IMG/VR virus record: IMGVR_UViG_3300005096_000041
Span: 1 to 22,276 of that record
Direction: 5' to 3' (one strand)
Source of the DNA: a virus
DNA: 22,276 bases
Position numbers and translations under genes: made by a program. Positions 1,561-14,102 of the stretch are shown piece by piece. Within the stretch, counting starts at the first letter, position 1; each line of letters opens with the position of its first letter. The notes under the pieces are model-generated. The model was not told where the DNA came from and searched no databases. It was given only the letters and a program-made list of their open reading frames with translations.

Positions 1561-1818
1561 ATGGATTACCCGTTAGAGATTACCAGTGTTGGCAGTGACA
1601 GTTACATAGTTATGAGCAAAGGACACCACGATCTTAAGGTATTTATGGATAAAGCTAAAAAAGAATATCCAGATTGGATGCTTGGTGGTGCTATACACAA
1701 ATGGTGCAAAGTTATACCAGATAAGAGCGGTAAATTTAATAGCATATTTGCCTTTGTAGACAAAACGGGAAGAGGCGCTTTCCCTGTTACTTATTGCTAC
1801 GAATATGGCGACACATAA
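1561..1818 (+). CDS. conserved phage hypothetical ending in an attC site
   Basis: The 85-residue protein begins three bases after the previous stop; the ATG at 1561 follows TTTAAGGG closely. It has the motifs VMSKGHHDLKVFMDKAKKEYP and, near the end, GAFPVTYCYEYG, which I have seen in small phage proteins next to the MGREIRKV family. Its function is unknown. Its TAA stop is inside the R'' heptamer (ACATAAC) of the first attC site, so the gene is either the last native gene before the cassette block or a cassette whose left border is unseen. Confidence 0.7.
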   Translation: MDYPLEITSVGSDSYIVMSKGHHDLKVFMDKAKKEYPDWMLGGAIHKWCKVIPDKSGKFNSIFAFVDKTGRGAFPVTYCYEYGDT

Positions 1819-1936
1819 CGCTTGGCATCACCAGACGATGGCAACTAGAAACTTTAACGTAGAGATTAGATTTAACTAACCACTAACTAACAATGTGCAA
1901 CGCTGCCATCGATCTGCGTGTATGCCATTGTTATAT
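1813..1936 (+). other. integron attC site 1
   Basis: The R'' heptamer ACATAAC (1813-1819) and the R' heptamer GTTATAT (1930-1936) bound a 124-base imperfect inverted repeat. The left arm carries TTGGCAT and CAGACGATGGCA; the right arm carries TGCCATCGATCTG and ATGCCA, which pair with it while leaving unpaired bases. Size and layout fit the long attC sites of chromosomal integrons. The spacer (about 1843-1903) is AT-rich and has no gene. Confidence 0.85.
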
Positions 1937-2312
1937 TTTAATTAACGGAGAAACAAAATGAAAACTCAACACAAAATTATTTTTGCCTTTATTCTTGTTG
2001 GTGCATTATCTGGCTGCGGTGACGGTGCCATTACCACAGGATCAACCAATGATCTTATGACTCCTGATCACAATTATGAAATTGACACATGGGGAACTAA
2101 CTCTGAAATTTATGAATTCACCCCAAAAAGCAATAACGAAAAGACCTGCGTTTTTGTAATGCTTGATTCAGGAGATGCTATGGGATTGCAGTGCTTCGAC
2201 AAACCTCAAGGCAAATAAATATAACGCCCAAAATCAGGGGCAGAAGGCCACAACATTGGCCAAGAATTACACTAAGAAACGTCGCGGACTTCTGTCCGCT
2301 GGATTTTGATTG
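1931..2312 (+). mobile_element. integron gene cassette A (lipoprotein)
   Basis: The 382-base unit runs from the cut point in GTTATAT at attC1 to that in GTTAGGC at attC2. Its own R'' (ATATAAC, 2219-2225) is the exact reverse complement of its first bases plus the preceding G. This is expected for a cassette that excises as a circle and completes its own R'/R'' pair. It has one gene in the standard orientation, with its stop abutting the attC. Confidence 0.85.
1958..2218 (+). CDS. predicted small lipoprotein, cassette-borne
   Basis: This 86-residue protein has a typical lipoprotein signal: KTQHK basic start, a hydrophobic core IIFAFILVGA, and a lipobox LSGC with the lipidated Cys at residue 20. 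The mature part is about 67 residues, with TPKSNNEKTCVFVMLDSGDAMGLQCF near the end; two Cys could form a disulfide. It should be attached to a membrane of the envelope. Residue +2 is Gly, not Asp, which would allow outer-membrane sorting in Gram-negatives. An AACGGAG site precedes the ATG. It is the only gene of cassette A. Function is unknown; a role in surface change or superinfection would be speculation. Confidence 0.8.
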   Translation: MKTQHKIIFAFILVGALSGCGDGAITTGSTNDLMTPDHNYEIDTWGTNSEIYEFTPKSNNEKTCVFVMLDSGDAMGLQCFDKPQGK

Positions 2313-2318
2313 TTAGGC
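2219..2318 (+). other. integron attC site 2
   Basis: R'' ATATAAC (2219-2225) and R' GTTAGGC (2312-2318) bound a 100-base site. The left arm around CAAAATCAGGGGCAGAAG (2229-2246) pairs with the right arm CTTCTGTCCGCTGGATTTTG (2289-2308), leaving extra unpaired bases on one strand as in functional attC sites. A small GGCC hairpin sits inside (2246-2261). Confidence 0.9.
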
Positions 2319-2751
2319 CTGGAGGCTACCAATGGACTTGATAAAGCATCTTCAAAGACAGCGTAATTTTTCAACTAAAACATTCGGCCCTGGTCAACGC
2401 ACAAGCGGTATTATTGATCACATAAAGAAAGAGTTGGTAGAGATAGAAGCCGAGCCAGATGACTTAGAAGAATGGATAGATGTTGTAATGCTTGCTCTTG
2501 ATGGTGCTTGGCGCGCAGGTCACACGCCCGTAGATATCGCCAATGCTCTAAAGGCAAAGCAAGCAAAAAATGAAAATAGAGACTGGCCAGATTGGCGCAC
2601 CTCTGACCCTGAAAAAGCTATTGAGCATGTAAGGGCCTAACGCTCGCAATAACCGGATTGCGGATTAAGAACGCCGGAAACATTGAACTAGAAAAGAAAG
2701 GCTAACTTTGAATTAAACACCGCTGTAGCAATTCCGCGTTGATTGCGCTTG
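2313..2751 (+). mobile_element. integron gene cassette B (DUF550 pyrophosphohydrolase)
   Basis: The 439-base unit lies between the cut points of attC2 and attC3. Its R'' (GCCTAAC, 2635-2641) is the reverse complement of its start heptamer GTTAGGC, even though this heptamer differs from that of both neighbours. That match argues strongly that the unit is a genuine, individually mobile cassette. Confidence 0.88.
2332..2640 (+). CDS. DUF550 / MazZ-type dATP/dGTP diphosphohydrolase
   Basis: This 102-residue protein matches the DUF550 family (dATP/dGTP diphosphohydrolase, MazZ-like, all-alpha NTP pyrophosphatase fold) over its whole length. Key motifs are FGPGQRTSGIIDHIKKELVEIE (residues about 18-39), with metal-binding Glu residues, then DDLEEWIDVVMLALDGAWRAG and the end motif NRDWPDWRTSDPEKAIEH. 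Members hydrolyse dATP/dGTP to the monophosphate and pyrophosphate. In cyanophage S-2L the enzyme feeds 2-aminoadenine DNA synthesis, but most phages with the domain lack that pathway and none of its other genes is here. A strong GGAGG lies just after the attC2 R' site. It is the sole gene of cassette B. Confidence 0.85.
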   Translation: MDLIKHLQRQRNFSTKTFGPGQRTSGIIDHIKKELVEIEAEPDDLEEWIDVVMLALDGAWRAGHTPVDIANALKAKQAKNENRDWPDWRTSDPEKAIEHVRA

Positions 2752-2757
2752 TTATAC
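2635..2757 (+). other. integron attC site 3
   Basis: R'' GCCTAAC (2635-2641) and R' GTTATAC (2751-2757) bound 123 bases. The left arm (2635-2661) contains CGCAATAACCGGATTGC and the right arm (2728-2757) contains GCAATTCCGCGTTGATTGCG, its imperfect complement. The CDS stop falls inside R''. The right arm is nearly identical to that of attC site 4. Confidence 0.9.
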
Positions 2758-3219
2758 GGCGGCATACAAAAGGTAAATATTATGAATGCTGAACAAAGCA
2801 TAAAACGACACATATTAATGAGCATGCTAACTGAGGAGCAAATGGATGAGGATGACAATCTTGATTTAAGCACCGCTGATGGTGTGGATGCGGCATACGA
2901 ACAAGCAGAAGAATATACTGGATCTTTTGAAGATACCGAGATAATTGATGAGGTGAGTGATTTTAGATGTAGTGGGCAAGAAACAAACCTTACATGCAAA
3001 GAATACAGCAGGCACTATGAGAGTGAGCGAGTCGCTGCAAAGCTAAATGATGGGACGTATGTCAGCTGGGTGTACTGGACTGGAGGCGGTAAGCACGGAG
3101 AGCCTGAGGCGATGGGCTGGATGGAGGATGCGTTCTTTGTTGATTGTGAAGAAAAGCAACAAATGGTAACTACATACAACTTTTCGATCAAAACCGACAG
3201 CGCGTGACCGCCGTATAAC
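2752..3219 (+). mobile_element. integron gene cassette C, 3' truncated
   Basis: It starts at the attC3 cut point and carries one gene. At its end CCGCCGTATAAC (3208-3219) is the perfect 12-base reverse complement of the cassette start GTTATACGGCGG (2751-2762), so R'' is present. The rest of an attC (a right arm and an R' GTTRRRY) is not found before the next gene, so the site appears cut off after its left end. Confidence 0.7.
2782..3207 (+). CDS. conserved plasmid/phage hypothetical, cassette-borne
   Basis: The 141-residue protein uses the ATG at 2782, which AAAGGT precedes; an in-frame TTG at 2743 would lie in the attC and is rejected. The acidic first half is variable. The second half, with SRHYESERVAAKLNDGTYVS and a WVYWTGGGKHGEPEAMGWMEDAFFVDCEE stretch, matches a family that I recall in plasmids and phages of proteobacteria and that has no known function. 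Trp, Gly and acidic residues dominate the conserved part. There is no signal peptide or membrane segment. It is the only gene in cassette C. Confidence 0.75.
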   Translation: MNAEQSIKRHILMSMLTEEQMDEDDNLDLSTADGVDAAYEQAEEYTGSFEDTEIIDEVSDFRCSGQETNLTCKEYSRHYESERVAAKLNDGTYVSWVYWTGGGKHGEPEAMGWMEDAFFVDCEEKQQMVTTYNFSIKTDSA

Positions 3220-3258
3220 GTCGTGAATCAGCGGTTGACAGCAGTGGAGGACTTAAAC

Positions 3259-3537
3259 ATGGCACATCACGAATTAAAAACAAACCCTGATGTTTTTCAG
3301 TTAAGTTTCGAGGGTAAAAAGAATTATGAGATACGTTGGAATGACAGAAATTTTCAAGTTGGTGACACATTAACGCTAAAAGAAACAGCGTATAGCTACA
3401 AAGAAATGACAGACATTGAAGATCCTAAACCACTCGTTTATACAGGGCGCGAACTAAAGGAAACTGTAAATCATGTATTTACAGGGGAGAAATATGGAAT
3501 AATTTTAGGGATGGCAATACTTAATTTGGATGTATAA
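3259..3537 (+). CDS. DUF3850 (ASCH/PUA-like) protein
   Basis: This 92-residue protein begins at the ATG at 3259, eight bases after TGGAGG. It opens HELKTNPDVFQLSFEGKKNYEIRWNDRNFQVGDTLTLKE, the hallmark of DUF3850, a small fold of the ASCH/PUA superfamily thought to bind RNA or modified bases. The conserved K-T-P-FQ and K-YEIR-NDR-FQVGD residues are all present. The C-terminal strand GEKYGIILGMAIL is also typical. It follows the truncated attC remnant directly. Function is inferred from the superfamily only. Confidence 0.85.
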   Translation: MAHHELKTNPDVFQLSFEGKKNYEIRWNDRNFQVGDTLTLKETAYSYKEMTDIEDPKPLVYTGRELKETVNHVFTGEKYGIILGMAILNLDV

Positions 3538-3567
3538 CCGAAAATTATACCGAACGAGAGAAAAATT

Positions 3568-3852
3568 ATGTACAACTACGAAACTGAAAAACCTAAAATA
3601 TTTACTAAGGATGACATGAAAGAACTTTTTGAAAAATTCAATAACTTACAAAGCGAAAAAGAAAAGTGGGCGTGGATAGTAGCACATCAAGATTCAGGTA
3701 TTACAATTAAATTAGATAACGACGATACTTTTGGCGTCTTTGATGATGACGAAGGTGGTGATTATATCTTGAGTTTTGATGAATATCTTGGTCGGAGCTG
3801 CGGGATACAGACGCTACTAGAAGTTTTAGAAATTAAAGCTGAGCGCGTTTAA
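3568..3852 (+). CDS. acidic hypothetical protein
   Basis: The 94-residue protein is preceded by GAGAG (3556-3560). The first half is a charged helix (KDDMKELFEKFNNLQSEKEKWAWIVAH); the second half has a beta-like DNDDTFGVFDDDEGGDYILSF segment and a final helix containing GIQTLLEVLEIKAE. I cannot name a family. The strongly acidic middle could mimic DNA or simply be a solvent-exposed loop. It is followed by ATATAAC (3853-3859), one of several R''-like heptamers after stop codons in this block. Confidence 0.65.
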   Translation: MYNYETEKPKIFTKDDMKELFEKFNNLQSEKEKWAWIVAHQDSGITIKLDNDDTFGVFDDDEGGDYILSFDEYLGRSCGIQTLLEVLEIKAERV

Positions 3853-3885
3853 ATATAACAGCAGTAAAATACAAAGAGGTGAGAG

Positions 3886-4053
3886 ATGAAGAAAATGAAT
3901 AAAATAAAGAACCCTGATGCTTTCTTAATGGGGATGAAAGATTGCCGCAAGGGGATTGCTCACAACTCAGGTCGCGGGAAAGATTACGACAAGGGTTATT
4001 CAGCCCAATACCATAATGAACAAAACATAACGGGGCTATCACGTGGACATTAA
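3886..4053 (+). CDS. small basic protein, RMF-like spacing
   Basis: The 55-residue ORF begins MKKMNKIKNPDAFLMGMKDC after an AGAGGTGAGAG ribosome binding site (3874-3884). It is basic, with pairs of Gly-containing helix motifs (FLMGMKDCRKGIAH and YDKGYSAQYHNEQ), loosely recalling phage relatives of ribosome modulation factor. That resemblance is weak. Its last 11 bases overlap the start of the Rad52-like gene at 4043, which fits translational coupling. Confidence 0.6.
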   Translation: MKKMNKIKNPDAFLMGMKDCRKGIAHNSGRGKDYDKGYSAQYHNEQNITGLSRGH

Positions 4054-4582
4054 TAAGCTGCAAGAACCTTTGACGGTTGATGAGCTTAACTTTAGGGTGC
4101 AGTCTATAAATAATGGGGGTTACGCGACAATACTCCCATACAAAGATGCGAGAGTTGATATCAATCGTTTGAATAGTGCCTGTGGTGTTTTCGGGTGGCA
4201 AAAAAAATACTCTAGAGAGAACAAAAATTGCACTGTATCTTTATGGCACAAAGAGAGTGACCAATGGGTAAGCAAAGAGGATACCGGGACAGAGAGTGGG
4301 ACGGAGGCGGAAAAAGGTCTGGCAAGCGATTCGTTCAAGAGAGCGTGCTTTAATTGGGGGATAGGGATAGAGTTATATGATTATCCTGTAATTCAACTCA
4401 AGCTAACGGATGATGAGGTCTCAATGGTTAATGGGCAAAAACCTAAAGCCACATGGAAGTTTAAGCTCAAGGAATGGAAATGGTATTTAAAAACATCCAC
4501 TAAAGGCAAGGTCGAGCAGTTAGCAGCGCAAGACCAGCTAGGGAATACCAGGTTTAATTATACAGTGAAGGTGAAGAAATGA
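4043..4582 (+). CDS. Rad52/Rad22-like single-strand annealing protein
   Basis: This 179-residue protein starts at GTG 4043 inside the previous gene. It has the pattern of the phage Rad52/22 family: a start of the form LQEPLTVDELNFRVQS, then DARVDINRLNSACGVFGWQKKY, then EDTGTESGTEAEKGLASDSFKRACFNWGIGIELYDYP, where the KG-ASDSFKRA-WGIGRELY core is best conserved. Such proteins form rings that anneal complementary single strands during phage recombination and replication. It overlaps the Gp157-like gene by ATGA and lies two genes from SSB, a usual grouping for phage annealing systems. The C-terminal part (from about 140) is Lys-rich. Confidence 0.85.
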   Translation: MDINKLQEPLTVDELNFRVQSINNGGYATILPYKDARVDINRLNSACGVFGWQKKYSRENKNCTVSLWHKESDQWVSKEDTGTESGTEAEKGLASDSFKRACFNWGIGIELYDYPVIQLKLTDDEVSMVNGQKPKATWKFKLKEWKWYLKTSTKGKVEQLAAQDQLGNTRFNYTVKVKK

Positions 4583-5055
4583 AACTGTACGAGATAGCGA
4601 ATAAATACGAGGAAGCTTATCAAAAATTAACAGCCCTAGATATTGATGAAAAAACAATTAGCGATACGTTAGAATCTATCGAGGGCGAGTTTGAAGAAAA
4701 GGCAATCAACACAGCTAAGCATATAAAGAATATCCAGGCAGAGTTGGAAGCTTTAAAGAATGAGATTGCGATAATGACGAAAAGAAAGAAATCAAAAGAA
4801 TTGCAAGTTACCAAACTGCTAGAATATTTAAAGTTTAATATGGGCAATCTGGGCATAAAAAAAATACCTTCCATATCGTTCGATATCTTGATTAAGAAAA
4901 GTCCAAGTTCGGTTATGATTATTGACGAAAACGAGATACCTGACAAGTATAAAGCTAAGTCTGTCCTTATTAGCATTGATAAAAAGGCAATAAAAAAAGA
5001 TGGCGGGTGCGATGGTGTTGAAATTAAATCATCATCTAGAATTGAAATTAAATAA
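4579..5055 (+). CDS. Siphovirus Gp157-like protein
   Basis: The 158-residue protein starts in an ATGA overlap with the Rad52-like gene. It has a long N-terminal coiled-coil (about residues 5-90; EGEFEEKAINTAKHIKNI, then a Lys-rich EIAIMTKRKKSKELQVTKL) followed by a C-terminal beta part with the family signature IPDKYKAKSVLISIDKKAIK. This layout is that of the Gp157 family, often next to phage recombinases and linked in Streptococcus phage work to resistance to infection by phage. Its biochemical role is not established. Its position supports a part in recombination. Confidence 0.85.
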   Translation: MKLYEIANKYEEAYQKLTALDIDEKTISDTLESIEGEFEEKAINTAKHIKNIQAELEALKNEIAIMTKRKKSKELQVTKLLEYLKFNMGNLGIKKIPSISFDILIKKSPSSVMIIDENEIPDKYKAKSVLISIDKKAIKKDGGCDGVEIKSSSRIEIK

Positions 5056-5065
5056 GGAATAAATA

Positions 5066-5536
5066 ATGATAGAACAGAAAATAATTAAATGGGCAGAAGA
5101 TAGAAATATATTTGAAAAATCTAGCCCGGTAAATCAGCAACGGAAAACCGTTGAGGAAATGGGGGAACTTTTCGACGCAGTAAACAAAGGGAATAAAGAA
5201 AGCATTAGACTTGAAATTGGAGATATATATGTAACTCTTATTCTACAGTCTAAAATGCAAGGTATTCTAGATATGAATAATCGCCCAGGATTTAACTCTA
5301 AAGGTCTTGACCTTCTGCCTTGGTACATCGGAACCCTTTCGAGAAGCATTATCGATGGAGATGTAGCACAGACCTGTTATGCAATCGATAGATGTTGCTC
5401 ATCACTAGAAACAATAACCGCAGAATATGGGCTTACTTTAAGTGAGTGTGCTAGCGCCGCTTATGAAAAAATAAGCAAGCGAAAAGGTAAAATGAAAGAC
5501 GGGATATTTGTAAAGGAGATTGAAAATGCCAAATGA
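5066..5536 (+). CDS. MazG-like NTP pyrophosphohydrolase
   Basis: The 156-residue protein has the motif of the all-alpha NTP pyrophosphohydrolases: EEMGEL (residues about 30-35) and EIGDIYV (about 50-56), the two helices whose acidic residues bind Mg. The C-terminal segment YEKISKRKGKMKDGIFVKE is typical of phage MazG-like proteins. Such enzymes hydrolyse (d)NTPs or related alarmones to monophosphates. It follows a GGAATAA site 10 bases after the Gp157-like gene and overlaps ssb by 11 bases. It is the second enzyme of this fold in the window, beside the cassette-borne DUF550 protein. Confidence 0.85.
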   Translation: MIEQKIIKWAEDRNIFEKSSPVNQQRKTVEEMGELFDAVNKGNKESIRLEIGDIYVTLILQSKMQGILDMNNRPGFNSKGLDLLPWYIGTLSRSIIDGDVAQTCYAIDRCCSSLETITAEYGLTLSECASAAYEKISKRKGKMKDGIFVKEIENAK

Positions 5537-5975
5537 TTTAAACCAATGTAATTTCATAGGACGAGTAGGAAAAGAAGTAAATACACGATATTTACCTGAT
5601 GGAAAAGCAGTTGCCAGCTTTAGTATTGCGGTTGGTTCATCGTGGAAAAACAAAGAGAGCGGCGAAAAACAAGAATCTACGGAATGGATTAACATTTCAG
5701 TCTTTGGAAAACTTGCGGAGATATGCTCTGAATATTTAAGAAAAGGCTCTAAGGTATTTATTTCAGGAAAATTTAAAACAGATAAATACAAAGACAAAGA
5801 AGGTAATGACCGATACTCAACAAAGGTCATAGCCAACGATATGCAAATGCTTGATTCTCGCAGTGGCCCACCAACCGAACAGAGTTCTGAGCAAGAATCT
5901 AACCAGAGGCCACCAGTCCATGCACAGAATCAACAATCACCACCTCCTGATTTTGATGATGTTATCCCTTTTTAA
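5526..5975 (+). CDS. ssb: single-stranded DNA-binding protein
   Basis: The 149-residue protein uses ATG 5526, which AAAGGAGAT precedes at seven bases. The OB fold covers residues 1-110: LNQCNFIGRVGKEVNTRYLPDGKAVASFSIAV, then EWINISVFGKLAEICSEYLRKGSKVFISGKF. A disordered Gln/Pro-rich linker follows and the protein ends in DFDDVIPF, the acidic tip that recruits partner proteins. It coats single-stranded DNA in replication and recombination, probably with the Rad52-like protein three genes upstream. Confidence 0.97.
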   Translation: MPNDLNQCNFIGRVGKEVNTRYLPDGKAVASFSIAVGSSWKNKESGEKQESTEWINISVFGKLAEICSEYLRKGSKVFISGKFKTDKYKDKEGNDRYSTKVIANDMQMLDSRSGPPTEQSSEQESNQRPPVHAQNQQSPPPDFDDVIPF

Positions 5976-6063
5976 TTAAGCATAACGAGGATGAAGTAAC
6001 CATATAGCAGTGAAATAAATGATAAATTTTGCAACTAATTATATTACCTTTAAGGAGATAAAA

Positions 6064-6282
6064 ATGCCAATAATGCTATACCCAATTTGCTGGAGAGACC
6101 GACAGGACTGCGAGCCAATCCATTGTATTGACGCTGCACCATGTGACGTTACCGAAGATCAGTTAATGGAATTCCAATATATACCTGAGTGTCATTTGTT
6201 TGCTCAGGGACAGTATCAAAACCAAAAGTTAAACAAGATCAATACCGATTATGTTTTAAAAATAATTGGTCTGATGAAATGA
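6064..6282 (+). CDS. Cys-containing hypothetical protein
   Basis: The 72-residue protein begins at ATG 6064, six bases after TAAGGAGAT; an earlier in-frame ATG at 6019 lacks a site. It has Cys at about 9, 16, 21, 27 and 45 in the pattern ICWRDRQDCEPIHCIDAAPC, which could bind metal. No family is recognised. Its stop overlaps the next ATG (ATGA at 6279-6282). Confidence 0.6.
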   Translation: MPIMLYPICWRDRQDCEPIHCIDAAPCDVTEDQLMEFQYIPECHLFAQGQYQNQKLNKINTDYVLKIIGLMK

Positions 6283-6410
6283 GCGATAACGATTTACAAG
6301 ATTTAACTAGCATTGTTGCGGTTGTTGGCGCTGCTTTGAATATTGATGCCGTGAGAAAGGTTAACTCCGGAATTGTCGAACTACCAGCCGCACAAGCCAG
6401 TGATACATAA
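6279..6410 (+). CDS. very small hypothetical protein
   Basis: This 43-residue ORF is supported mainly by its ATGA overlap with the previous gene. The longer frame that begins at 6189 is an out-of-frame extension and is not preferred. The sequence has a hydrophobic helix (LTSIVAVVGAALNIDAV) and a polar end. The function is unknown. Confidence 0.45.
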   Translation: MSDNDLQDLTSIVAVVGAALNIDAVRKVNSGIVELPAAQASDT

Positions 6411-6428
6411 TACTATACCTATTTAGGA

Positions 6429-6527
6429 ATGAGAGCATTAGGTGAAGATATGAAAAACAAAGACCTTGGATTAGCCCAGGTAAAGCCAGAAGGAAAAAAC
6501 TACAGTTCTTGTGAGAAAAGAAAATGA
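6429..6527 (+). CDS. possible 32-residue peptide
   Basis: The ORF begins MRALGEDMKNKDLGLAQVKP and ends with an ATGA overlap with the next gene (6524-6527). A second in-frame ATG at 6450 has AGGTGA (6440-6445) before it and would give 25 residues. Basic, short, no known relative. The ATGA junction is the main evidence. Confidence 0.4.
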   Translation: MRALGEDMKNKDLGLAQVKPEGKNYSSCEKRK

Positions 6528-6916
6528 CTTGGCTCAAAGATAGTAACACGCACGTAAATAGTAATGATACCGATAAAGGTTTGCCAGATTCTAGCGATGT
6601 TATCCCATTTCCATCAGACGTTATTAAAAACGCTGAGGATCGGAAAGGGTTGACCGGCCTTGCTATGGAGTATTATACAAATGATATGGCTGGAAGTGGG
6701 CAGTTCGGTATTTGTGTCAAATGCAAGAAAGGGCCAACTAAAGAGGGGCACGATGGGTGCCTAGGCACGCTGCCCGGCGAAATCATGAACGCCTGCTGTG
6801 GACACGGTAATACCAATCAGGCGTATATACAATACTGGGGCGGTAAGCGCATTGCTGGCGATGAAGCTATGACAGAGCAGGTAAGGCTAATTGAAAAAAT
6901 GGTCAGTGACGCATAA
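6524..6916 (+). CDS. conserved phage Cys-rich hypothetical
   Basis: The 130-residue protein has a variable, polar first half and a conserved second half: FGICVKCKKGPTKEGHDGCL, then GTLPG-IMNACCGHG and YIQYWGGKRIAG. The Cys/His set (CVKC, HDGC, ACCGH) suggests a metal-binding knuckle. I recognise the second half as a common small phage protein with no known function. It overlaps the preceding short ORF by ATGA and is followed by a 67-base gap before the next gene. Confidence 0.75.
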   Translation: MTWLKDSNTHVNSNDTDKGLPDSSDVIPFPSDVIKNAEDRKGLTGLAMEYYTNDMAGSGQFGICVKCKKGPTKEGHDGCLGTLPGEIMNACCGHGNTNQAYIQYWGGKRIAGDEAMTEQVRLIEKMVSDA

Positions 6917-6983
6917 GTTGTTTTTAAGCTGCGGCACCCTGTCCTAGAAATAGCCCAAAAGTAAATTTAACGTGGGGTGAAAA

Positions 6984-7244
6984 ATGGATAGATTAGATAT
7001 TTATCTTTATACATACATAGAAATAAATAAGAATGAACTTATTGGGGCTAGAATGTATTTTTACGAAATAGAAACTACAGTACTAAAGAATTCATACTAT
7101 GGTCAAAGTAATAATCTACCCCATACAAATCCTGTTATTGCCGATGGCCGGGGTAGATTTCCTAAAATATTTATTGAAAAACCGTATAGGGTAATTATAA
7201 AAAATGCAGCTGAACAAGAAGTTTTCTACGATGATTACGAATAA
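6984..7244 (+). CDS. orphan tail-fibre N-terminal domain-like protein
   Basis: This 86-residue protein follows a strong GGGGTGA site. Residues about 20-86 read GARMYFYEIETTVLKNSYYG, then NLPHTNPVIADGRGRFPKIF and a YRVIIKNA-E-EVFYDD end. This is the pattern of the small beta domain at the start of many podovirus and siphovirus tail fibres, where it attaches the fibre to the tail. The window's own tail fibre (9386-12115) begins with a related version (GLVYFY--TTE-A--F--E-LTVPQSNP). Here the domain stands alone, on the opposite strand among early genes. It may be a stand-alone adaptor, a relic, or a gene moved as a unit. Confidence 0.7.
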   Translation: MDRLDIYLYTYIEINKNELIGARMYFYEIETTVLKNSYYGQSNNLPHTNPVIADGRGRFPKIFIEKPYRVIIKNAAEQEVFYDDYE

Positions 7245-7329: not shown

Positions 7330-7354
7330 AACAGAATATACGGAGTAAAAACAT
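7330..7354 (+). promoter_or_regulatory. repeated translation leader, copy 1
   Basis: A 25-base leader with GGAGT as ribosome binding site precedes the ATG at 7353. It matches the leader at 7829-7853 in 24 of 25 positions, including the flanking AACAGAATATACGGAGT. Confidence 0.7.
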
Positions 7355-7604
7355 GAATGTAACTATGAGCAATAATAAATCGACCCCTGAAAAAGTGGTG
7401 AAAGAGGTGATATTTGACAAAGCGGGCTATCTATTTGCAATTCATTGCCCAAGTTATAAAGAACCTTTTCTTCTATACCGAATGAAAGAAATGTGGAAAA
7501 TCAGTAAATCGGATTTTGTTCGGGCAATAACGAAGAATGAATTTGATCTTCGCAAGCATAACGGCTGCAATAACGGGATTGCGATTGATAAAGTCAGTTA
7601 TTAA
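7353..7604 (+). CDS. hypothetical protein whose end is encoded by an attC
   Basis: The 83-residue protein follows the leader with GGAGT. It is basic and mixed in secondary structure, with FDKAGYLFAIHCPSYKEPFLLYRMKEMWKISKSDF. The last 16 or so residues (HNGCNNGIAIDKVSY) are encoded by the left arm of attC site 4, which starts at 7556. So the stop codon of the original gene may have been lost, or this end is simply tolerated. No family is recognised. Confidence 0.6.
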   Translation: MNVTMSNNKSTPEKVVKEVIFDKAGYLFAIHCPSYKEPFLLYRMKEMWKISKSDFVRAITKNEFDLRKHNGCNNGIAIDKVSY

Positions 7605-7685
7605 AGATTACTTAACAACTAAACAAAGAGATGAAGCTTAACCAACCACTGACAAAGCAATTCCGCGTTAATTGCTTGGTTATGT
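7556..7685 (+). other. integron attC site 4 (isolated)
   Basis: R'' GCATAAC (7556-7562) and R' GTTATGT (7679-7685) bound 130 bases. The left arm GGCTGCAATAACGGGATTGC (7563-7582) pairs imperfectly with the right arm GCAATTCCGCGTTAATTGC (7657-7675). Both arms closely resemble those of attC3, so the two have a common source. The left arm overlaps the coding end of the gene at 7353-7604. Confidence 0.85.
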
Positions 7686-9385: not shown

Positions 9386-12115
9386 TTAAAAACTAAAAAA
9401 ATGCGGACTACCAAAATATATTCTAAAACGATAAGTTCTTAGGTCGTCGTTGGCATTATCAATAAAAGCCACATCGGTTCCGTTTAGTGCGGCCAATGCT
9501 GGTGAGCTTGCGGATGCGATACTTGAATCTGAACCCACTTGTGACCAGGTCGAACCGTTAAATCGGTAAGTTCGGAGATCGGTGTTGACGTTATCAATAA
9601 AAGCCACATCGGTTCCGTTTAGTGCGGCCAATGCTAATGCGCCTACTGTTCCAATATTTAAATCTGAACCCACTTGTGACCAGGTCGAACCGTTAAATCG
9701 GTAAGTTCGGAGATCGGCGTTGATGGCATCAATAAAAGCCACATCGGTTCCGTTTAGTGCGGCCAATGCTGGTGCGCCTGCGGATGCGATATTTAAATCT
9801 GAACCCACTTGTGACCAGGTCGAACCGTTAAATCGGTAAGTTCGGAGATCGGCGTTGCCACTATCAATAAAAGCCACATCGGTTCCGTTTAGTGCGGCCA
9901 ATGCTGGGAAGCCTACTGTTCCAATATTTAAATCTGAACCCACTTGTGACCAGGTCGAACCGTTAAATCGGTAAGTTCGGAGATCGTCGTTGGTGTTATC
10001 AATAAAAGCCACATCGGTTCCGTTTAGTGCGGCCAATGCTGCGAAGTTTGCGGATGCGATATTTAAATCTGAACCCACTTGTGACCAGGTCGAACCGTTA
10101 AATCGGTAAGTTCGGAGATCGTCGTTGCCAGCATCAATAAAAGCCACATCGGTTCCGTTTAGTGCGGCCAATGCTGGGAAGCCTACTGTTCCAATATTTA
10201 AATCTGAACCCACTTGCTCAGCGGAACCCCGTAACATATCGCCTGCCGATAACAAAGTGCTCGTTATGTCTGGAAAAGTTATCGTTCGATTAGTCGATTG
10301 ATTAAAATCTAATGTTGTTGTTGTGCTTGCGGTTGCTCCAGATATATCAAAATCAACTGTCTTAGTTGCCGTTGTTGCGTCTTGGATATCAAACGCGTCT
10401 GTTTGTGCGTTGACTGTGTTCGTATTTCCTATAGTCTTGTTCGTTAGGGTATCTGTGGTTGCTCTACCGACCAGCGTATCAGTAGTATCTTGAATCGTGA
10501 CCGTTCTATCCGCTGTCGGGTCGGTGGCGGTAAGCGTGGTTTCAAATGCATCTGCCGTCGCCCCTTCAAATACGATTCCTGTACCATCAATTATTGGACT
10601 AGTTATGGTTTTATTGGTTAACGTAACTGGGTTCGTCAACGTTGCAAAATCATCGTCCGATAAGGCCGTATTAAATTCAGCCGTAGTTCCGGTTAAGGTA
10701 TTACCTGTTAAGTCAATTGACTTGTTCGTTAGAGTAATCGAATTCGTCAACGTTGCAAAATTATCATCCGATAAGGCCGCGTTAAATTCAGACGTTGTTC
10801 CAGTTAAGGTATTATCTGTTAAGTCAATTGACTTGTTCGTTAGAGTGTCTGTAGTTGTTTTTGTTACAACTGTATCGGTTACGTCTGGTAATGTTAAAAC
10901 CCGATTTGCCGTTTGACTTGAAGTAATCGTGGTCTTTGTTCCTGTCGTTCCAGCCGCGTTGAAATCTATTTGTAATGTTGCATCGGCTGCATCATCAATT
11001 GTGAAAGCATCGTCTTGGGCATTTATTATATTCGTATCGCCAATGGTTTTATTCGTTAATGTGTCGGTAGTGGCTCGTCCAACCAATGTATCGGTGGAAT
11101 CTTGAATAGTTACCGTCCTATCCGCTGTAGGGTCAGTTACAGTTAACGTGGTCTCAAATGCATCCGCCGTTGCTCCTTCAAATACGATTGATGCGTCCGA
11201 TAAAATTAAGCCCGATACTGTTGGGCTAGTAATAGTCTTGTTCGTTAGGATGTCAGTAGTGGCTCGGCCAACTAATGTGTCGGTTGCGTCTGGGATCGTG
11301 ACCGTTCTATCTGCGGTCTGAACTACCTGGATAGTTGTTTTTGTGGCTCCGTCCCCTATTACTGAAAAATCGAGTTGCCTTGATGAGCTAGTACTAGCTT
11401 GAATAACAAATGCATCGTCTTGAGCGTTTATAGTGTTGGTGTCGCCAATGGTTTTATTCGTTAACGTCTCCGTTGATGCTGCGTTAGAGTGATCAATAGA
11501 GCCAGACACGCGTTCATCAACTATCAATGCTGTAGTTATAGCCGTTGTCGTGGTTTGTAGCGTGAATTGGGCGCTTGGCTGGCTATCAGCCGGAATAGCA
11601 GGGGCAGTCGGACTAACGGCTTCTACGCCTGCTACGATTGAATAAACTCCTGTAGTTCGATTAATTATAATTCTGTCTATTCTTGGATTATTGACAGGGG
11701 CGGTAATAATCGTTGTTGTTTGATCGGCAATGCTTACGAGTGTTTCGCCGTTCATTACTTTTCCAGATTTGATAATAACTGACATTGAAGCCGGGGAATT
11801 CTCTACAGTCTGGAATTGCTCAACAACCGTTATATCACTTGCTGAGGTTTCTACATCATCATCGGTAAGAGGAAGCGAGCCATCAGAATTGGTCTGCTTT
11901 ACGGTCATCTTACCGCTGTATTTTACATCTCCTTGGATTTCTCCATAGGCATTAAGCATGTAAGGATTAGACTGAGGAACGGTTAAATCTTCATCCGAGA
12001 ATATCTTAGCTAATTCCGTAGTTTTGTTCACGTAGAAATAAACAAGACCATCCGCCCGAACTTTCCCTAGCGAGTCTCTAAATACTTGCCTTACATTAAT
12101 GGCGTTATTTGACAT
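9386..12115 (-). CDS. tail fibre / receptor-binding protein with repeat propeller
   Basis: The 909-residue protein starts at the ATG at 12115 (MSNNAINVRQVF), overlapping the previous stop by 11 bases; an in-frame ATG at 12145 is less likely. Residues 1-90 form a tail-attachment domain (GLVYFYVNKTTELAKIFSDE, NPYMLNAYGEI). Residues about 210-620 are TDTLTNKTI-type repeats with DRTVTIPDATDTLVGR segments, a shaft common in phage fibres. Residues 634 to about 897 are six 45-residue units (QVGSDLNI--ALAALNGTDVAFID--LRTYRFNGSTWS), probably a beta propeller that binds the host. The final dozen residues (RIYFGSPHFFSF) break the repeat abruptly. It is the last gene before the lysis cassette, 209 bases away. 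Confidence 0.85.
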   Translation of the reverse strand: MSNNAINVRQVFRDSLGKVRADGLVYFYVNKTTELAKIFSDEDLTVPQSNPYMLNAYGEIQGDVKYSGKMTVKQTNSDGSLPLTDDDVETSASDITVVEQFQTVENSPASMSVIIKSGKVMNGETLVSIADQTTTIITAPVNNPRIDRIIINRTTGVYSIVAGVEAVSPTAPAIPADSQPSAQFTLQTTTTAITTALIVDERVSGSIDHSNAASTETLTNKTIGDTNTINAQDDAFVIQASTSSSRQLDFSVIGDGATKTTIQVVQTADRTVTIPDATDTLVGRATTDILTNKTITSPTVSGLILSDASIVFEGATADAFETTLTVTDPTADRTVTIQDSTDTLVGRATTDTLTNKTIGDTNIINAQDDAFTIDDAADATLQIDFNAAGTTGTKTTITSSQTANRVLTLPDVTDTVVTKTTTDTLTNKSIDLTDNTLTGTTSEFNAALSDDNFATLTNSITLTNKSIDLTGNTLTGTTAEFNTALSDDDFATLTNPVTLTNKTITSPIIDGTGIVFEGATADAFETTLTATDPTADRTVTIQDTTDTLVGRATTDTLTNKTIGNTNTVNAQTDAFDIQDATTATKTVDFDISGATASTTTTLDFNQSTNRTITFPDITSTLLSAGDMLRGSAEQVGSDLNIGTVGFPALAALNGTDVAFIDAGNDDLRTYRFNGSTWSQVGSDLNIASANFAALAALNGTDVAFIDNTNDDLRTYRFNGSTWSQVGSDLNIGTVGFPALAALNGTDVAFIDSGNADLRTYRFNGSTWSQVGSDLNIASAGAPALAALNGTDVAFIDAINADLRTYRFNGSTWSQVGSDLNIGTVGALALAALNGTDVAFIDNVNTDLRTYRFNGSTWSQVGSDSSIASASSPALAALNGTDVAFIDNANDDLRTYRFRIYFGSPHFFSF
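9425..10216 (-). repeat. six tandem 135-bp repeats in the fibre gene
   Basis: Six units of exactly 135 bases start at 10216, 10081, 9946, 9811, 9676 and 9541 (minus strand); the last is cut short near 9425. Units are nearly identical except for two short windows. Units 1, 3 and 5 carry an I-GTVG version and units 2, 4 and 6 an I-ASA version, so the true period is 270 bases. Confidence 0.95.
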
Positions 12116-14102
12116 CTTCTTTTGGTTCCTTATTTGAAATAACATTCATGTATTCATAAATGGCTGGCTCTAATGTGCTATCTTTTTCTGCGATTACCGC
12201 TAATCTACCTAAGTGTGACCCTATACCTGTTTGACTTGCGGCTACTCGACCGCTATCAGCCAGCCAGCTTACAAATTTTGGGCTTGTAATTAACTTCGCG
12301 GCAGCCCAAGGAGCAAGAACACCTATAGCCATTCCACCAACAGCGCCAGTTGTTGCACTTTCTCCTTGCTCTAAGCCATAGGCTCCACCAAGCCCTCCCG
12401 TTAATAGCTGCATATACATTAGCTGCTGGGCGGTTCCCGAGGTATTGGCCATTTTACTTACATCTTTTAATGCGGCACTGACTGTAACCAGGTCTTCAAT
12501 TGAAGATTCCAGCCCCTTATACTGAGGGCCAGTAAATAATACTTTTTTGGCTTTGTTGTCTAGCTTGCTATAGCTAGTTAAAAAGGTTGCCGGGGAAAAT
12601 AAATCACCCGAAACATCTTGACGGCCCGGTGTAGCTCGGCCCATTTCTTTTATTTGTTGTGCAACAACCGTATCCCATTCTTGTTTTGGCATACTTTTCT
12701 TTAGAGTTCTAAGTTTTTGCGCCCCATGTTTAGCACCAGATATTGCAGAATTAAATACTTCTTGGCTTAATCTTTTATTTACCACAGGCTTCAATACATC
12801 ATCTATTCTAGATCTTCCCGCACTCCAAAACTTAGAGGCTCGTTCCGCTGCTTTTAAAGCTTCTGGGCCTGATTGGGCTGCGGTTAACGCCATGTCATCA
12901 GACAATGCACCGTATAGTTGCTTAATTTCAGCTTGAGAGGTGTCACCTATTAACTGCCTATCATCTAAGGCTTCACCCATTTTTGTTCGCAATGACTTTA
13001 ATGTTTTATATGTCATTCCGCCCCTATTTTTTGCTGCATCGTTCGCTAGCTTTAAGCTTTTAAACATAGGCGACATTAATATATCTGCGAACTCTGGGTC
13101 ATCTGAAAATTTATTTAATGTATTATCGAGTTGATTAGTAAAGTTATTTGTTTCAACTTTTTTGGTGGGTTTAATATACTGGTCTACCTTTGCATAAAGA
13201 TTATTAGCCTTACCCTTAAATTTATTAGTGAATTTAACAACGCCTTTCTTTATCGCTTCCCCGGTAACTTCACGGCCATTTATTTCCGACACGCCTTTTG
13301 CTAAATCATCAGCATATTTCCCCATGTCATCAATTAACTTCCCATATTCTTTTCCAATAATATCGGCACTAGCTGGTAGCTTTGATAACGCTTGCTCTAT
13401 GCCTTGTATAGTAGGACTTCCCGATACTGCTCCAGCAGTTGGCTTGATACCCATTCGCTTAAAAGATTTATAAATTTCATCTCCGGACTTTCTAGCTAGC
13501 TCGGCTCCTTTCGAGACCCCTTTTTTAATGCCTTGCTCCACAAGTTCGCCAGCCCTAACACCTACAGCATTCGCTAACACATCAGTCGTTGTTTCTGCGC
13601 TTTTCTCCAAGAAACCTCTTGTGTCAATATTCGGATAAAATAAATCTGCAATAACATCGAAGACCTGCCCACCTGCCGCCGCACCTAGTCCTGTTCCTAT
13701 AGGGACAGTCAATATCTCTTCTGGCGTGGCTATTTGTGGGCCAAGCTGTCCAGCGACTAACGCACCAACACCTCCAATTGTTCCGCCGACATATTCAAAT
13801 AACATTCTTGCATTCTCGGAAACATCTCCAAGGTCTAATCCTTTAGGATTAAATAGCGTTTTGTTTTTTGTTTCTGGGTTAGTGAAAATAAAATTATCAC
13901 CTCCCCACTGTTCTGCATCAGGATAGTATTGTTTTAAAGTATTTAGTTTGTCTTCGGGTTTTTTTGATGCTCCAACTGCTGACCGAACACGATACGGAGC
14001 GCCTATCTTTTCATCAACATTACTAATTGCGCCATATTTTCTTGGATCTATCCCCATAGAATCAACAACAGTTGCACCATATTTACTTGGGTCTAGGCTC
14101 AT
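12105..14102 (-). CDS. internal virion / DNA-ejection protein (P22 gp16 position)
   Basis: The 665-residue protein is the last of three large genes after a P22 gp10-like gene, the position of gp16 in P22 (609 residues), which enters the cell during DNA ejection. It has an N-terminal part with two copies of DPSKYGA/DPRKYGA, a hydrophobic, Gly-rich stretch (about residues 100-150; GGTIGGVGALVAG, GTGLGAAAGG) and a second one near 570-610 (LLTGGLGGAYGLEQGESATT, then AVGGMAIGVLAPWAAA). Such segments fit insertion into the inner membrane. The middle is helical and Lys-rich. Assignment rests on position, size and layout; no catalytic motif is seen. Confidence 0.65.
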   Translation of the reverse strand: MSLDPSKYGATVVDSMGIDPRKYGAISNVDEKIGAPYRVRSAVGASKKPEDKLNTLKQYYPDAEQWGGDNFIFTNPETKNKTLFNPKGLDLGDVSENARMLFEYVGGTIGGVGALVAGQLGPQIATPEEILTVPIGTGLGAAAGGQVFDVIADLFYPNIDTRGFLEKSAETTTDVLANAVGVRAGELVEQGIKKGVSKGAELARKSGDEIYKSFKRMGIKPTAGAVSGSPTIQGIEQALSKLPASADIIGKEYGKLIDDMGKYADDLAKGVSEINGREVTGEAIKKGVVKFTNKFKGKANNLYAKVDQYIKPTKKVETNNFTNQLDNTLNKFSDDPEFADILMSPMFKSLKLANDAAKNRGGMTYKTLKSLRTKMGEALDDRQLIGDTSQAEIKQLYGALSDDMALTAAQSGPEALKAAERASKFWSAGRSRIDDVLKPVVNKRLSQEVFNSAISGAKHGAQKLRTLKKSMPKQEWDTVVAQQIKEMGRATPGRQDVSGDLFSPATFLTSYSKLDNKAKKVLFTGPQYKGLESSIEDLVTVSAALKDVSKMANTSGTAQQLMYMQLLTGGLGGAYGLEQGESATTGAVGGMAIGVLAPWAAAKLITSPKFVSWLADSGRVAASQTGIGSHLGRLAVIAEKDSTLEPAIYEYMNVISNKEPKEDVK

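Follow-up and report, generated by a model that had tools for sequence, protein, structure and literature searches.

The window analysed here is the entire IMG/VR record IMGVR_UViG_3300005096_000041, 22,276 bases long, and probably represents about half of a phage genome, relatives being 44-47 kb in size. Its right part holds P22-like modules on the minus strand, with genes for the head closure protein Hc3 (phrog_578) and for DNA ejection (phrog_598), in a genome that the original prediction also called P22-like; judged by Hc3, the closest named phages are podoviruses of Shewanella, Vibrio and Thalassomonas, with ~30% identity. Small plus-strand early genes occupy the left part, including those for single-strand annealing, Gam-like, MazG-like and single-strand binding proteins. 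Two ORFs of the window are repetitive: a 72-aa ORF at 362-580 consists mostly of G-Y/G-S/G-D repeats (a GGCTATGGCTCT-type DNA repeat) and is likely a hypervariable tract, and a predicted tail protein of 919 aa at 9386-12145 contains near-identical repeats (QVGSDLNI...TYRFNGSTWS).

Integron gene cassettes are exchangeable units by which bacteria gather genes. Within the early region of the window, sites resembling the attC of such cassettes alternate with single small genes, as follows.

1561-1818, plus strand: phrog_10472 gene, 85 aa, 5' of S1 (PHROG E=2.4e-27), its TAA stop lying inside the S1 box
1813-1936 (124 bp), minus strand: attC S1; R' GTTATGT at 1819-1813, R'' ATATAAC at 1936-1930; hairpin score 32.1
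1958-2218, plus strand: cassette 1, small predicted lipoprotein, 86 aa (phrog_27004, E=5.6e-10)
2219-2318 (100 bp), minus strand: attC S2; R' GTTATAT at 2225-2219, R'' GCCTAAC at 2318-2312; hairpin score 30.7; matched by covariance model R2
2332-2640, plus strand: cassette 2, predicted dATP/dGTP pyrophosphohydrolase (PF04447, DUF550; Pfam E=3.9e-26; phrog_4826 E=4.5e-54)
2635-2757 (123 bp), minus strand: attC S3; R' GTTAGGC at 2641-2635, R'' GTATAAC at 2757-2751; hairpin score 28.6
2782-3207, plus strand: cassette 3, phrog_25120 protein, 141 aa, function not assigned (PHROG E=5.6e-31)
3213-3219, minus strand: S4, a left half-site GTATAAC at the end of cassette 3, with 12-nt complementarity to the right box of S3
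7556-7685, minus strand: fourth, solitary attC; hairpin score 26.5; weak R2 match; one arm nearly identical to an arm of S3

The sites were scored in a scan for TAAC...GTTA boxes joined by bulged complementary arms. All three sites proposed in the original prediction, with their lengths, R''/R'-type boxes and bulged inverted arms, were recovered, whereas 0/60 dinucleotide-shuffled windows contain a site scoring at least 26 and the top shuffled score is 25.0. The solitary site at 7556-7685 and the half-site at 3213-3219 had been overlooked in that earlier reading; no convincing partner box was found for the half-site, and the array is cut off there. Read on the plus strand, the boxes are ACATAAC/GTTATAT in S1, ATATAAC/GTTAGGC in S2 and GCCTAAC/GTTATAC in S3; the TAAC/GTTA core is present in all four window sites (4/4) and the full RYYYAAC or GTTRRRY consensus only in some boxes. 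Imperfect inverted arms, unpaired spacers and extrahelical bases are present, the last distributed between left and right arms of the plus strand as 0:3 in S1, 0:2 in S2, 0:3 in S3 and 2:3 in the fourth site. When folded with DNA parameters, S1, S3 and the fourth site each adopt the attC stem as their minimum-energy structure on either strand; in S2 the stem costs 0.3 to 2.3 kcal/mol more than the minimum, so the anticipated hairpin is optimal or nearly so throughout. The exact pattern of the arm common to S3 and the fourth site is absent from IMG/VR and from 84,980 genomes. Further early genes stop at or beside TAAC boxes at 3535, 3846-3858 and 5978-5990, where no partner is visible and decayed sites are possible. 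The sequence AGAATAYACGGAG directly follows a TAAC box 5' of genes at 7333 and 7832 of the window and, in the structural relative G001, at 6590 and 5993 of L041 (minus strand), and perhaps represents a half attC or a leader common to both phages.

Covariance searches relied on two models built for this analysis and distinct from HattCI/IntegronFinder. The short-loop model R1 matches sites of four other viral contigs, G001, G013, G014 and G015, with E-values down to 3e-9, and fails on long sites, real Vibrio ones included, for which reason the long-loop model R2 was built; its training set comprised only attCs from TJE1, PH101 and a V. anguillarum phage carrying a complete integron, and none from the window. 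R2 finds S2 on the minus strand with E=7.1e-6 and 32.6 bits, within the range of most Vibrio sites, and matches S3 (E=0.4) and the fourth site (E=4.5) weakly, again on the minus strand; S1 is scored by neither model. The loop lengths of S1, S3 and the fourth site differ from that of R2.

The strongest argument for mobile cassettes comes from the boxes. The start box of a cassette complements its end box, since the two formed a single site while the cassette was circular. Across the window, the right box of one site complements the left box of the next over 9 nt (S1-S2), 8 nt (S2-S3) and 12 nt (S3 and the half-site at 3213), compared with only 5, 4 and 4 nt between the two boxes of S1, S2 and S3 themselves, four of which are fixed by the search. 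Pooling six phages gives 15 of 24 consecutive cassettes with matches of 8 nt or more, a result reached in 0/20000 permutations, and the within-site match averages 5.4 nt; the remaining 9/24 intervals fall below 8 nt, and the fourth window site has no cross-cassette match. Such complementarity is a signature of mobile cassettes that is hard to explain otherwise, RNA hairpins or chance fitting it badly, and it is chiefly on this ground that the proposal of a cassette array in a phage early region is upheld. One gene occupies each interval between window sites and, in attC terms, the cassettes consist of S1 with the lipoprotein gene, S2 with the DUF550 gene and S3 with the phrog_25120 gene, the attC lying 5' of each gene.

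The cargo itself is phage-like. Judged by homology, the known relatives of the DUF550, phrog_25120 and phrog_10472 proteins and of the lipoprotein are mainly from phages: the phrog_10472 protein has phage homologues at 50-60% identity, the lipoprotein shares 75% identity over 67 residues with a protein of a viral contig (L028), and homologues of the cassette 3 protein occur across 19 phage records. The closest genomic DUF550 homologue (80% identity) lies in a prophage-like region of a gammaproteobacterial metagenome-assembled genome, without attC, and nothing convincing as an attC was found beside DUF550 homologues in viral and bacterial loci. The PH101 homologue of the cassette 3 protein is located outside the PH101 attC array.

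Arrays of this kind recur in other phages. The structural relative G001 (IMGVR_UViG_3300037587_000425, 43,881 bp) possesses an attC array of its own at 2,600-7,200 of the contig. A search with the pattern of its sites returned four further viral contigs, of which three contain arrays: G013 (37.0 kb), G014 (39.8 kb) and G015 (50.7 kb); being seeded by G001, this sample represents one attC subtype and is possibly biased. These three are structurally unrelated to the window phage, with which they have almost nothing in common apart from single-strand binding and annealing proteins and one short weak match. One protein family is common to the G001 and G014 arrays (47% identity). No strong attC array was found in the structural relatives G002-G011, which have almost no early genes in common with the window, and for this reason no empty insertion site was found. 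By blastn, the G001 array gave weak matches only, mostly to HNH endonuclease genes, against phages and plasmids, and the G015 array gave zero matches. A short element encoding N-V-S-A-S-G-S was observed within unrelated phage ORFs (L041, minus strand, 4041 and 3425; L085, minus strand, 2173), followed by GTTATGTG in two of the three copies; it is perhaps a translated minimal recombination site.

A search of the record for an integron integrase gave a negative answer: the window, probably a fragment, contains no PF00589 match, and no such tyrosine recombinase was found in 16 viral contigs, six of which carry arrays or sites and most of which are fragments or of uncertain completeness, so an integrase may be missing from the data. 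With three sites within 945 bp and no PF00589 match in this probably fragmentary record, the locus corresponds to a CALIN, a group of two or more neighbouring attC sites lacking intI; a complete integron would comprise intI and attI, and no tyrosine recombinase was detected in the window or its relatives.

The original prediction also placed a single gene in the standard orientation between sites, and only the first half of this description holds. All four window sites are oriented against their genes. The R2 matches to S2, S3 and the fourth site all lie on the minus strand, the genes on the plus strand; the spacers read GCT/GCC on the left and AA/AAT/AAG on the right, the reverse of reference attCs near a real intI; and in MK672802, an integron with intI, and in TJE1 the left arm holds the extrahelical bases and its spacer starts with AA. 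Because the first extrahelical base determines which attC strand recombines (PMC2727003), the canonical bottom strand corresponds to the plus strand of the window.

This reversal extends beyond a single contig. When attC and gene strands are compared by one rule and with the same model in phages and gammaproteobacterial genomes (143 and 6), bacterial sites have the same strand as the gene in 50 cases, the opposite in 2 and an ambiguous relation in 6, whereas the phage counts are 0, 21 and 3. These figures do not derive from the spacer-filtered scan, which was set aside because its own filter biases polarity. Inside both G001 and G014 the attC strand switches along with the gene strand, which makes polarity a property of the cassette and not of replication direction. 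The rule is not valid for all phages: the attC sites of PH101 are opposite to the annotated genes, while those of TJE1 have normal polarity. The gene stop codon coincides with the TAA of the crossover box in 24/29 phage sites versus 5/16 reference sites (p=0.001); the DUF550 gene, which stops at the TAA of the S3 box, is one such case. The G001 attC subtype pattern gave one match in 369 gammaproteobacterial genomes, G196, where a bacterial attC pair at 1498-1959 (L092), one member of which is of this subtype, has normal polarity.

Several other accounts of the locus deserve consideration. The hairpins could be RNA elements of the early transcript, such as terminators or processing sites, with a convergent likeness to attC; the genes on either side of them do run the same way, and both strands form stable structures. 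An RNA stem, however, requires complementarity within the site, and here the outer boxes match instead across the gene, which contradicts this account. The TAAC/GTTA ends, the spacer asymmetry and three evenly spaced bulges are moreover those of functional attCs, a model derived from such sites matches, and an Rfam search of the window returned no matching family, so that RNA elements appear highly improbable.

Chance capture of a stretch of bacterial chromosomal integron, with ordinary bacterial cassettes in transit, would agree with the ordinary attC anatomy of the window, with the existence of phages carrying host-derived integron segments (those of V. anguillarum, as described in PMC9892861) and with the single occurrence of the G001 subtype among the 369 gammaproteobacterial genomes. 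A captured segment would nevertheless keep gene and attC co-directional, and their opposition here largely refutes capture; wherever a cassette gene has known relatives, it is a phage gene, and the arm common to S3 and the fourth site has no exact match in the 84,980 genomes. Capture is accordingly improbable. A genuine attC array moved by a phage-encoded recombinase, located in the unrecovered part of the genome or belonging to an unrecognised family, is also unlikely: the window is probably half a genome and arrays recur across several phage lineages, yet no Pfam tyrosine recombinase is present in G001 (43.9 kb) or in G013-G015 (37-51 kb), whose completeness is uncertain. The locus is most probably a short CALIN-type cassette array among the early genes of a P22-like phage, belonging to the phage arrays whose attCs run against their genes.

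Each cassette combines a single phage-type gene with a ribosome site of its own and an attC 5' of the gene. We infer that a host integrase would carry out the recombination, as in other CALINs: the integron integrase of the host would fold the single-stranded coding strand, recombinogenic in this polarity, and swap cassettes between phage arrays. Strand exchange would take place at TAA^C on the coding strand, TAA usually being the stop codon of the gene; with the crossover just past the stop codon, the upstream gene would remain unharmed at each event and the incoming gene would end up oriented with early transcription. Selection for expression, acting through exchange at TAA^C and the direction of early transcription, offers a possible but rather doubtful cause of the reversed polarity.

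It is tempting to speculate that lytic phages own a separate cassette pool, split from the bacterial one by polarity, and that host integrases shuffle their early genes at stop codons; this is a genuine possibility, and still a tentative one. The pool would be self-consistently reversed among phages and mostly useless to bacteria. Were it so, phage cassettes would be silent in bacterial integrons and bacterial cassettes silent in phage arrays. A gene placed against its attC would be antisense to the Pc promoter if inserted in a bacterial integron, so that spread to bacteria, the role of vehicle suggested in the original prediction, seems less likely than a phage-to-phage pool. Reversed polarity thus weakens the idea of phages seeding bacterial integrons with cassettes, while providing a simple testable rule for telling phage cassettes from bacterial ones, relevant to the question of where cassettes are born. 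Small genes form mosaics in phage early regions, and their swapping is mostly credited to illegitimate or homologous recombination; the cassette system would add a site-specific route for early-gene exchange by means of a bacterial enzyme.

In comparison with known systems, the array shares with chromosomal arrays of Vibrio and other Gammaproteobacteria and with bacterial CALINs the boxes, spacers, extrahelical bases, single-gene cassettes and covariance model; it differs in that the bacterial gene lies on the attC top strand (50 versus 2) and in that the phage contigs have no detected intI. Cassette integration into bacterial attG sites (Loot et al. 2024, as cited in PMC12901181) would account for a first cassette arriving in a phage, at a GTTA/TAAC sequence. 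Qi et al. 2023 (PMC9892861) describe attC arrays without integrase in the virulent phages Pseudoalteromonas PH101, Tetrasphaera TJE1 and Polaribacter P12002L, and recombination of PH101 attC sites with IntI1. The window resembles these phage CALINs in its integrase-free attC array, the lytic phages concerned and the small genes between sites; it is like PH101, which shows one strong cross-cassette box match, in reversed polarity, and unlike TJE1, which has normal polarity. No mention of reversed gene polarity was found in the main-text sections consulted or in a small literature search outside bioRxiv and most subscription journals. Since attC arrays of lytic phages are already published there, the new part appears to be reversed-polarity arrays of phage genes, and the present arrays extend that work with phage-gene cargo and with further, structurally unrelated phages.
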